64,000 nucleotides of DNA from positions 62,001 to 126,000 of the forward strand of contig NZ_KI391954.1 in assembly GCF_000185725.2 (NCBI RefSeq). The letters are read 5' to 3'. Made by a program: the position numbers and the translations under genes. The stretch is from Segniliparus rugosus ATCC BAA-974 (lineage in GTDB: Bacteria > Actinomycetota > Actinomycetes > Mycobacteriales > Mycobacteriaceae). Positions 48,803 to 63,591 of this stretch are shown in pieces (position 1 is the first letter of the stretch; every line of letters begins with the position of its first letter). Under the pieces are notes generated by a model. The model ran no database searches. It saw only the letters and a program-made list of their open reading frames with translations, and had not been told where the DNA came from.

Positions 48803-50353
48803 CTAGGCGGAGGCCTCTTCTTCTCCGTCCGGCTCCATGAAGGCTCGGCGCGGCTCGTCGTCCGGGTTGCTCCAGCTGCTGGGCAGCAGCGGGCTCGTCG
48901 GTCCGGATTGGAACGCTCCCCGGCCGGGGAGCTGCGTCATCCCGAGCGCGGAAGCCGCGCGCTGGGTCGGGGCCGTTCCGGCGAAGCCGATGACTCCCGC
49001 GCCTTGTGCGGAGGCTTGCGGCGCGTCGCTCTGCGCGGCGGCGGCCTCGGAGGGGGCCTTCGCGCCGTCTTCGATGAACTCGTAGCGGTATTGGCGGCCG
49101 CGCGCCGCGCCCGTCATCTGGCGCTTGCGCCGCGCCGCCGCCAAGGACGCGTCCTTCGATTGCGCCGCCGCGACGGCGTACCCGCCGGTGGTGTCGCTGG
49201 CGGAGGAAGTCGCGCTCTGGCCCGCGGCGGACGAAACCTGAACGGTCCCGCCTGCGGTGATGGCGTACGAGGGCCCTTCGGGGACGGCGGAGGCGTTCGA
49301 CGGGGAGGACGCGGGCGCGTGTGACCCGGCGGGCTGCCCGGAAGCCGGGCTGGACGAGCCGAGGCCGTGCGCGGGGGCCGAGGCGGAGCCGGCTCCCGAG
49401 GCGAGGACCGGGGCGACCACGTGCGGCAGGTCGTTCCGCTGGCCGTTCGGCTCTGCGGTTGGCTCCGGCTCGGCTTCGGCGGGGGTTTCCTGCGGCCCGA
49501 GCAGCTCGGCGAATGTGCCGATGCTGCCCATGAACGCGATACCGGTGATGCTCACGCCGGTGAGCAGCCCGTACGCCGGGAACTCGACGAACAGGTGCTG
49601 CGCCGCGATGTAGCCGCCGACTGCCGCGAGGGCGAACCCGAAAAGCGCGACCGGGTTGCGCATGAGCCGCTCGATGTCCTCCTTGAGGTTCTTCCAGAGG
49701 TCGCGGTCCGAATTGTTCTCCGAGTCGTCCAGCTCAAGCCTCGCCTCGACCGCCCGCGCCAGCGCGGCGAGTTGGTTGGCCATCGCGGCGGACTGCCCTG
49801 CCTCCCCGACCCCAGGGGCGAGGAGCCCAGGGGCAGGGGGAAGCTGGGGCACAGCGGACGTCGCGGCGGTCGCGATGGCTTGATAGGTGGTCATCGCCTC
49901 CGCTGCCTGGATCCACATCCGGACGTAGTCGGCCTCGTTGAGGGCGATGGGAATGGTGTTGATGCCGAGGAAGTTCGTGGCCATGAGCAGGCCGTGGGCC
50001 GCGTGGTTCGCGGCCAGCTCGGGCAGGGTCGGCATCGCGGCGAGGGCGGCCTCGTACGCGGCGGCGACCGTGGCGTGCTGCGCGGCGGTCGCCGTGCTCG
50101 TGACACTGGCGGTGGCGAGCCAGTCGAGGAAGGGCGCATGCGCGGCGGCGAACTGTTCGGCGCTCGTCCCTTCCCACAGGCCGCCCTGGACGATGGCGAG
50201 CTGCTCGGCGAGCAGGGCGGCTGCCGTGGTGTACTCGGCGGCGAGCGAGGCCCATGCTTCCGCCGCCGCCAGCAGCGGCCCTGGGCCGGGGCCGGCGGAG
50301 AGCAGGGCGGAGTGCACCTCCGGCGGCAGCGCGAACCAGGCGGGAGCTGTCAC
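48803..50353 (-). CDS. PPE-family protein
   Basis: 516 aa from GTG 50353 (GTGA overlap with PE). N-terminal PPE domain, ~175 aa: FALPPEVHSALLSAGPGPG, with the WEG turn in GGLWEGTSAEQF and the FLGINTIPIALNEADYVRMW block. A hydrophobic segment follows (~235-285), then a Pro/Ser/Ala-rich region and a C-terminal RRAFMEPDGEEEASA end. Exported with its PE partner through an ESX system. The last gene of the 14.7-kb operon. Confidence 0.92.
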   Translation of the reverse strand: MTAPAWFALPPEVHSALLSAGPGPGPLLAAAEAWASLAAEYTTAAALLAEQLAIVQGGLWEGTSAEQFAAAHAPFLDWLATASVTSTATAAQHATVAAAYEAALAAMPTLPELAANHAAHGLLMATNFLGINTIPIALNEADYVRMWIQAAEAMTTYQAIATAATSAVPQLPPAPGLLAPGVGEAGQSAAMANQLAALARAVEARLELDDSENNSDRDLWKNLKEDIERLMRNPVALFGFALAAVGGYIAAQHLFVEFPAYGLLTGVSITGIAFMGSIGTFAELLGPQETPAEAEPEPTAEPNGQRNDLPHVVAPVLASGAGSASAPAHGLGSSSPASGQPAGSHAPASSPSNASAVPEGPSYAITAGGTVQVSSAAGQSATSSASDTTGGYAVAAAQSKDASLAAARRKRQMTGAARGRQYRYEFIEDGAKAPSEAAAAQSDAPQASAQGAGVIGFAGTAPTQRAASALGMTQLPGRGAFQSGPTSPLLPSSWSNPDDEPRRAFMEPDGEEEASA

Positions 50354-50664
50354 GGTCGCCCTGCCTCTGTCGCGTAGACCTCGGCGGCGAGCGCGTCGCC
50401 CTCGGCGTAGCTGGTCGCGGTCTCGGCGATCCCCGACGCGCCCCGGCCCAATTCCGCCATGCCCTCGCCCGCCGCGCCCTGGTGCAGGAGGGCGCGCGAG
50501 CCGAACTCGGCGGCGGCGAGGAGGGAGACCGGGTCGGCGGCGGGCGGGACGACCGAGGTGATCGTCGGGGCCGAGGCGGCGTGCGCGGCGGCCAAACGCG
50601 CGGTGATCGCCTCGACGGCGGCGCTCGCGGCGAGCAGCCCCTCGGGAAGGACACGCATGGTCAT
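50350..50664 (-). CDS. PE-family protein
   Basis: 104 aa. MRVLPEGLLAASAAVEAITA is a PE start (consensus with VLPE), and SYAEGD near residue 86 matches the YxxxD/E export signal. Translation is coupled on both sides (ATGA with the ligase, GTGA with PPE), so PE and PPE are made as a pair. Confidence 0.88.
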   Translation of the reverse strand: MTMRVLPEGLLAASAAVEAITARLAAAHAASAPTITSVVPPAADPVSLLAAAEFGSRALLHQGAAGEGMAELGRGASGIAETATSYAEGDALAAEVYATEAGRP

Positions 50665-52340
50665 GACTTCTTCTCCTTTCCGAGCGCTGTCGGCTCGGTT
50701 GTGGGATGGTTCGCGAGCCGTGCCGAGGTTTCGGCTCGGCGGAATTTGCCCGAGGATGTCTTCGGGATCCAGCCGGTGGGGGCGACGTGCACGTGCCGGG
50801 GGCTCACGCCGTGGCTGCGGTACACCCGGTCGGCCACTTCGCGGCGGATGCGCTCGCGCTCGGCCTCGTCGGCGTGGCGGGCGGACTCGACCACCATGGC
50901 GAATCCCTCGCCCGCCTCGGCGGTACGGAGCCGGACCGCGACGACATTGCCGGAGCGCACGCCTTCGACGGCGGCGGCGGCGCGTTCGACGTCCTCCGGG
51001 TGCAGGTTGCGCCCGGAGACGATGAGGATGTCCTTTTTGCGCCCGCAGATCACCGGCTGGCCGTCCTCGGTGAGGTAGCCGAGGTCCCCGGTTGGCAGCC
51101 AGCCCGCCTCGTCCGCGGCCCGCTCGAAGCCGCGCTCGGTGCGGTAGCCGACCGCGACGTTGTCGCCCCGGATCTCGAATTCGCCAGAGGAGAGGGCGGG
51201 GAGCGGCGCGCGGCGCTCGTCGACGACGCGGATCTCGCAGCCGTCGAGCGGGGAGCCGAGCGCGAGGCGCAGGCCGCCGCTTCGGTCTTCTGGCGCGGTC
51301 GGGTCGACGGGAAGCGCCCGGTAGTCCTCGCCAGCCCGTAAGAACGAGACCGCGAGCGTCGCCTCTGCCATGCCGTACGCGGGGACGATGGCTTCGCGGC
51401 GGAAGCCGAACCGCCCGCCCTCGGCGACGAGCCGGTCGAGGGTCGCGATGTCGATGGCCTCGGCCCCGCTCAACGCGAAACGGAGCGAGGAGAGGTCGTA
51501 CGCCCCGTCTGGGGCTTTGCCGAGCCGACGGGCAAGGACGGCGTAGGCGAAGTTCGGCGCGGCGGTCATCGTGCCCCGGTGCTCGGTGATCAGCTCGGCC
51601 CACAGAAGCGGGTCGGCGAGGAAGTCCGACGGGGTGATCTTCACCGTTTCGAGCCCGTACACCATGGGGTTGATCAAAAAGCCCATCATGCCCATGTCGT
51701 GGTAGAGCGGCAGCCAGCTCACCACCACGTCGGACTCGGCGCTGGCCCCGGACGCTTCGATCATGGCGCGGGTGTTGGCCGCGATGTTGCGGTAGGTGAC
51801 CGCGACGGCCTTCGGCGTGCCGGTGGACCCCGAGGTCAGCTGGAGGAACGCGATGTCGTCTTCGGCGGGGGCCCCGACGCGCCCCGCCGAGCCGGTCAGC
51901 AGCTCCGCGAGCCGCACCAGGCGCACGGGCAGCGCCGCGAGCTGGTCTGCCGCCGCGAGGAAGGGGTCGCCGAGCACGAGCGTCGTCGCCCCGACCGCGG
52001 CGAGCGCCGCGCGGGTGTCCTCGGCCCACACGCTCAGGTCGGAGCGGTGGTTCGGATGCTGGAGCATCGTGATCGACGCGCCTGCGAGCCAGATGCCCTG
52101 CACCAGCGGCGCGATCTCGCCGGGGGATCCGGCGAGCACGGCGACGGAGTCCCGAGGCCGCACGCCCGCGTCGGCCAGCGCGCCCGCGACGGCAAGCGCG
52201 CTCTGGTGCACCTGCGCCCAGGAGGTCCGGCCGGTCTGGTCGAACTGGGACGCGCCGAGCCCGTCGACCGGGGCGCAAGTCAGCCCGCGCCCGGTGGCCT
52301 CCGCGTTCTCGATCAGCGTGGTGAGCAGCGTGTTCATCAT
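50661..52340 (-). CDS. Fatty acyl-AMP ligase (FAAL/FadD type)
   Basis: 559 aa from ATG 52340 (GGAGG 5 bp upstream; overlaps the ACP stop). ANL-superfamily motifs: P-loop FLQLTSGSTGTPKAVAVTY, LPLYHDMGMMGF (FAAL-type), YGMAEATLAVSF, and GRKKDILIVSGRNLHPEDVE. It should activate a fatty acid as acyl-AMP and load the ACP encoded just upstream. Confidence 0.92.
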   Translation of the reverse strand: MMNTLLTTLIENAEATGRGLTCAPVDGLGASQFDQTGRTSWAQVHQSALAVAGALADAGVRPRDSVAVLAGSPGEIAPLVQGIWLAGASITMLQHPNHRSDLSVWAEDTRAALAAVGATTLVLGDPFLAAADQLAALPVRLVRLAELLTGSAGRVGAPAEDDIAFLQLTSGSTGTPKAVAVTYRNIAANTRAMIEASGASAESDVVVSWLPLYHDMGMMGFLINPMVYGLETVKITPSDFLADPLLWAELITEHRGTMTAAPNFAYAVLARRLGKAPDGAYDLSSLRFALSGAEAIDIATLDRLVAEGGRFGFRREAIVPAYGMAEATLAVSFLRAGEDYRALPVDPTAPEDRSGGLRLALGSPLDGCEIRVVDERRAPLPALSSGEFEIRGDNVAVGYRTERGFERAADEAGWLPTGDLGYLTEDGQPVICGRKKDILIVSGRNLHPEDVERAAAAVEGVRSGNVVAVRLRTAEAGEGFAMVVESARHADEAERERIRREVADRVYRSHGVSPRHVHVAPTGWIPKTSSGKFRRAETSARLANHPTTEPTALGKEKKS

Positions 52341-63520: not shown

Positions 63521-63576
63521 GGCATGCCTCCTGTGCTTCTTCGCGCTGGCTTGGGTGATTCACAGCCTATAGTAAA

Positions 63577-63591
63577 TGAAAATCATTTGCA
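63577..63591. promoter_or_regulatory. Zur/Fur-type box controlling the 14.7-kb operon
   Basis: TGAAAATCATTTGCA: 7-1-7 inverted repeat with one mismatch (TGAAAAT-C-ATTTGCA), close to the mycobacterial Zur (FurB) consensus TGAAAATnATTTTCA. Read on the minus strand, a possible -10 TACTAT lies at 63575-63570 directly beside it, so bound repressor would block the promoter. The DtxR/IdeR consensus is absent. Confidence 0.65.

Follow-up and report, generated by a model that had tools for sequence, protein, structure and literature searches.

The window analyzed here is a stretch of 64,000 nucleotides from Segniliparus rugosus ATCC BAA-974 (contig NZ_KI391954.1, positions 62,001 to 126,000), whose genome comprises 3.59 Mb on two contigs. 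Its minus strand carries, from 63520 to 48803, a run of 15 genes, here named A to O, which lies behind a Zur-type palindrome, encodes enzymes and transport proteins suggestive of a lipid-amine product, and ends in a PE/PPE pair. The features, in window coordinates, are as follows.

63577 to 63591: Zur-type operator TGAAAATCATTTGCA, fitting the published Mycobacteriaceae Zur motif with one mismatch
62438 to 63520, minus strand: gene A, membrane protein of 360 aa bearing the conserved His motifs HVLKQH, HSLQYH and HHFYMDG
61262 to 62441, minus strand: gene B, GNAT-family N-acyltransferase, split into halves at 61941-62441 and 61262-61954
60282 to 61262, minus strand: gene C, extended short-chain dehydrogenase/reductase (SDR; NAD-dependent epimerase/dehydratase)
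59194 to 60285, minus strand: gene D, membrane fatty acid desaturase (boxes HEIVH, HQDHH and HAMHH)
57851 to 59197, minus strand: gene E, class III aminotransferase of the diaminobutyrate--2-oxoglutarate type, below the NCBI exact-function cutoffs
56349 to 57854, minus strand: gene F, decarboxylase of the L-2,4-diaminobutyrate type, below the NCBI exact-function cutoff
55588 to 56352, minus strand: gene G, predicted N-acyltransferase with a FeeM/acyl-homoserine lactone (AHL) synthase-like fold
55103 to 55591, minus strand: gene H, small protein judged SRPBCC-like by eye, matching no Pfam family
54336 to 55106, minus strand: gene I, predicted lipoprotein (lipobox AVAGC, by eye)
53384 to 54328, minus strand: gene J, ABC transporter ATPase
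52626 to 53387, minus strand: gene K, ABC-2 type permease
52337 to 52615, minus strand: gene L, acyl carrier protein (ACP) with a DSL serine
50661 to 52340, minus strand: gene M, fatty acyl-AMP ligase type
50350 to 50664, minus strand: gene N, PE protein whose end region contains YAEGD (YxxxD)
48803 to 50353, minus strand: gene O, PPE protein with a PPW C terminus, nearest solved relative PPE4 of ESX-3

The coordinates bear out the tight packing of 15 minus-strand genes described in an earlier note on this DNA: neighboring genes overlap at 12 of the 14 junctions, by 4 bp in 11 cases and by 1 bp in one (not by 1 to 16 bp as that note had it), and are separated at the other two by the gaps that it gave, 7 bp at 54329-54335 and 10 bp at 52616-52625. 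The families it assigned (aminotransferase/decarboxylase pair, AMP ligase, desaturase, SDR, ABC-2 exporter, PE and PPE) also hold; the ACP, the SRPBCC-like protein and the split of gene B were absent from its account. The operon is presumably transcribed as a single unit that responds to zinc in this genome.

The palindrome TGAAAATCATTTGCA, likewise reported earlier, is real; it has a 7-1-7 architecture, with six of the seven arm positions paired, and is separated from the start codon of gene A by 56 bp. With up to one mismatch allowed, the pattern TGAAAATNATTTTCA has a single match in the window, and 100 shuffles yielded no match. A short repeat of the hexamer GCCATC lies upstream of the box, at 63655-63705. 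Genome-wide, a degenerate Zur pattern at 0 or 1 mismatch identified five palindromes, that of the window included; the others stand before the znuABC genes (ZnuA, an ABC ATPase recognized by eye, and an ABC-3 permease), before the EccA gene at the head of ESX-3, before a COG0523 (CobW) gene and before a Pyr_redox_3 gene with an SBF-family transporter gene after it (L008:6590-8762). The last of these palindromes is a perfect one of Zur type, and the two genes behind it are an unexpected candidate pair for zinc regulation. The published Mycobacteriaceae motif, at no more than one mismatch, gave 18 strand matches at 13 places versus 3 for the reversed control: no mismatches at the ESX-3 and COG0523 boxes, one each at znuABC and in the window, and nine more places at one mismatch; the Pyr_redox_3 site was not among these matches. 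A Zur-like gene is present at G000:C2:1176962 and shows a 53% match to the zur gene of locus L013, described below. The Zur box of the COG0523 gene is preceded on its strand, at a distance of approximately 180 bp, by the end of a further PE/PPE pair (L011:4713-6680). Boxes of 7-1-7 form are common to the Fur family, and it is conceivable that this one answers another Fur-family or iron regulator and that the operon is an iron system; we consider this very improbable, given that the znuABC, COG0523 and ESX-3 genes of this genome carry the same kind of box, and that both the published Zur motif and the zinc response of the corresponding Mycobacterium abscessus operon speak for zinc.

A search of the GTDB collection with a profile of gene A returned 18 loci: 12 mycobacterial, 2 from Nocardia, 1 from Streptomyces and 3 metagenome assembled (two Bryobacteraceae and one Candidatus Sulfopaludibacter). 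All 14 mycobacterial and Nocardia loci keep the order A to L, extending to M where the locus reaches that far, the sole exception being gene I, which was undetected in L025. The published Zur motif, at the same stringency, lies within 250 bp upstream of gene A in 14/14 of these loci and in 0/4 of the others, against a background of 64 among 8,709 stretches of 260 bp drawn at random from the 18 loci. In Mycobacteroides sp. LB1 (L013) the operon is divergent from genes of the ArsR and FUR families, which by position and family are the smtB-zur pair. Genes for alternative, zinc-free ribosomal proteins were recognized by eye within the upstream 10 kb of L015, L020 and L021 (L28 family confirmed in L015), as was a COG0523-like gene in that of L020. 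The Streptomyces novaecaesareae locus (L027:9986-18044) has homologues of A, B and C together with AMP ligases and, by eye, a polyketide synthase-like frame, without the Zur motif; A, B and C together may form a module of general use in acyl modification.

An operon of this kind has already been described in M. abscessus, where MAB_1680-1701 form one operon with a Zur box before the first gene, are repressed (log2 -3.61 to -10.30) under a compound that the authors identified as supplying zinc, and are termed a putative Zn-siderophore biosynthesis and transport system, Mce transporter included (PMC8951752). MAB_1680 is an inferred Zur target, with zur itself being MAB_1678c (PMC6734328). The annotated order in the published account runs, as in the window, through two hypothetical proteins, an epimerase, a desaturase, a diaminobutyrate aminotransferase, a decarboxylase, three hypothetical proteins, an ABC ATPase, an ABC permease, a further hypothetical protein and a Pks16/acyl-CoA synthetase. 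Zur regulation of the S. rugosus operon, as the earlier note had proposed, is thus strongly supported at the sequence level by the boxes of its own genome and the 14/14 conserved motifs, together with the published zinc repression in M. abscessus. With the M. abscessus operon already published, neither the zinc regulation nor the siderophore idea is new.

It is at its tail that the S. rugosus operon differs. Of the 14 relatives, 11 were read beyond the ligase gene (L046-L049, L051 and L078-L083; L017, L024 and L026 were not followed), and in 11/11 gene M adjoins gene L and is followed directly by YrbE and Mce genes (MlaE and MlaD domains were confirmed on the L046 tail), as the M. abscessus operon, in its published annotation, goes on with MAB_1693-1701, likewise YrbE and Mce genes. 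In the window no YrbE-Mce tail follows; in that slot sits the PE/PPE pair, the ligase gene overlapping the PE gene by 4 bp and the PE gene overlapping the PPE gene by 4 bp. Because it carries PE/PPE instead of Mce, the operon is a variant of the MAB_1680-type Zur operon and not a member of it. The system had been called new; this does not apply to a Zur-regulated putative Zn-siderophore operon as such, which is on record for M. abscessus (PMC8951752), and it does apply to the exchange of PE/PPE for Mce, which is the new part. Among the papers listed in searches of the open-licence literature, which leaves subscription papers mostly uncovered, none names the product or describes a PE/PPE-tailed form. 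In sum, the operon is genuine, conserved and preceded by a Zur box; its kind was already on record from M. abscessus, and what sets it apart is the exchange of PE/PPE for Mce.

Since the pair stands where 11/11 relatives read have YrbE-Mce, and the ABC-2 exporter is encoded separately, the comparison points to uptake rather than to the PE/PPE-aided export suggested earlier, and N and O, as putative ESX-3 cargo, would serve in uptake. It may instead be that the pair aids secretion or merely rides along as ESX-3 cargo needed during zinc starvation, replacing no Mce function. To this we attach a tentative, lesser probability: ESX-3 here has its own Zur box, the COG0523 box has another PE/PPE pair immediately 5' of it, two Mce clusters exist elsewhere in the genome, and in M. 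abscessus the PPE gene MAB_0809c is reported to be Zur regulated apart from the operon that bears Mce (PMC8951752, PMC6734328); what this explanation fits poorly is a pair placed exactly in the Mce slot, with a 4-bp overlap with the ligase gene and the rest of the operon unchanged. Among solved PPE structures gene O matched PPE4, PPE15 and PPE41 only (E values of 1.1e-55 for PPE4 and 3.4e-22 for PPE15). The idea that N and O are a PE5-PPE4 pair relocated from ESX-3 was dropped: the ESX-3 locus (L071:6394-7405) keeps its own PE5-like gene (68%) along with esxG and esxH, with no PPE between the PE gene and esxG, and the tree of PPEs does not resolve O as a PPE4 orthologue. Also weighed against relocation was the occurrence of a further PPE, without a PE, after a second eccA gene (L072:5850-9295; 68% to the ESX-3 eccA). 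Beside ESX-3, PPE, TauD-type (isonitrile synthase-like) and nonribosomal peptide synthetase (NRPS)-like genes extend to its Zur box (L070:7876-17024, L009:7022), which the stop codon of the NRPS-like frame overlaps, so that a diisonitrile-type cluster adjoins ESX-3, separate from the operon studied here.

From the families of its proteins, a plausible product of the operon is an acylated 1,3-diaminopropane. E and F would convert aspartate semialdehyde to diaminobutyrate and thence to 1,3-diaminopropane; M would load a fatty acid onto the ACP L; the desaturase D, the SDR C and the membrane protein A would modify the chain; and the FeeM-like G, with B, would acylate the amines. J and K would export the lipid, with help from the lipoprotein I, and N and O, secreted by the Zur-boxed ESX-3, would readmit its zinc-loaded form through the mycomembrane, performing the job of Mce in the relatives. 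The chance that the operon is switched on by zinc starvation and makes, exports and likely recovers such an acylated 1,3-diaminopropane, a lipid that would bind and capture zinc, with PE/PPE in the Mce slot, seems to us about even. Gene A belongs to no Pfam or NCBIfam family, a profile search of solved chains found none matching up to an E value of 10, and structural searches with Foldseek and VIA-align 2 gave weak matches only, on which grounds its identification as a known enzyme was dropped; it is a candidate membrane oxidase.

The diisonitrile lipopeptide/kupyaphore clusters (Rv0096-Rv0101 type) likewise combine an acyl-AMP ligase and an ACP with a PPE gene and a metal-linked lipid, but the window operon differs from them in having no isonitrile synthase or NRPS among the proteins scanned, and its product would have diaminopropane in place of an NRPS-held amino acid. 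Coelibactin, ethylenediamine-disuccinate (EDDS) and pseudopaline are further zincophores under Zur control (PMC6103462). The operon would resemble their systems in its Zur-controlled metallophore synthesis. Those compounds are peptides, EDDS or opines, not acyl-diamines.

A different view of the product is that it is an envelope lipid of zinc starvation, serving membrane or mycomembrane remodelling and zinc sparing and acting as no chelator, which Mce recycles in the relatives and to which the PE/PPE pair is unrelated surface cargo. Proteins such as the desaturase, the ABC-2 permease, the SRPBCC-like protein and Mce typically handle lipids, it is not evident what group would bind a metal, and the Mce genes of the M. 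abscessus operon (MAB_1693-1699) are reported to be induced in biofilm (PMC8586431). An exporter and, in the relatives, an importer within one operon suit a shuttle better, and zinc-sparing and COG0523-type genes are among the neighbors of the operon in the fortuitum group; we regard the envelope lipid as unlikely.

Several observations weigh against a zinc-capturing acyl-diaminopropane recovered by PE/PPE. Among the operon proteins scanned there is no isonitrile synthase or NRPS domain, as the earlier note had stated, and no hydroxamate enzyme, and no group can be put forward as the zinc ligand. Plain GNATs rank first for gene G in Foldseek, in spite of the FeeM/AHL synthase-like fold predicted for it, and the NCBIfam name for gene M, above its cutoff, is long-chain-fatty-acid--CoA ligase. 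Gene B occupies two frames (62441-61941 and 61954-61262, changing at approximately 61941-61975), whereas in 14/14 Mycobacteriales relatives the match coordinates place both halves in a single frame; the ORF is unbroken in both relatives checked (L021 and L026), and the intact gene of L021 matches Acetyltransf_1. The break, a feature of the window unlike the M. abscessus operon, is thus an apparent frameshift, by mutation or assembly error, and either a single acylation takes place here or the break is an error of assembly. With a 15-mer consensus alone, sites upstream of gene A in the relatives have scores of 10 to 12 of 14, and equal or better sites occur elsewhere in several loci; a consensus scan near the box on the minus strand, gene interiors not included, found no sigma-70-type promoter. 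Gene A is rare, being present in 3 of 397 sampled Mycobacteriales genomes, its own included, and has no match in the other genome of the genus examined (G409, 3.2 Mb). The correspondence with M. abscessus is one of annotated gene order in the paper, not of compared DNA. A homologue search with O found no second PE/PPE-tailed operon among the best 120 of 4,235 matches; the one relative clearly closer than the rest among the matches listed (P0154, 55%) lies on a 3-kb contig on which gene context is unreadable, and in a tree of 14 PPEs gene O groups with two others of the same genome, with the inner order open and PPE4 orthology not resolved. Finally, the two Mce clusters elsewhere in the genome (12 MlaD matches), for each of which the best box-like 15-mers in the surrounding 14 kb score only 10 of 14, could import in trans, and the PE/PPE pair may therefore have another role.

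It has long been asked what role PE/PPE pairs play at the mycobacterial surface, and the replacement of a whole YrbE-Mce cassette by such a pair in an otherwise unchanged zinc operon amounts to a natural experiment, with the direct prediction that the same cargo is served by two importers. It is possible, though we hold it doubtful, that one Zur-controlled lipid-zincophore shuttle can be built interchangeably with the Mce importer or with an ESX-3-type PE/PPE pair, in which case PE/PPE would be the mycomembrane gate and the product would represent a new NRPS- and isonitrile-free acyl-diaminopropane class. The operon is an unexplored candidate for an NRPS-free lipid metallophore system, and it occurs in rapidly growing mycobacteria and Nocardia.

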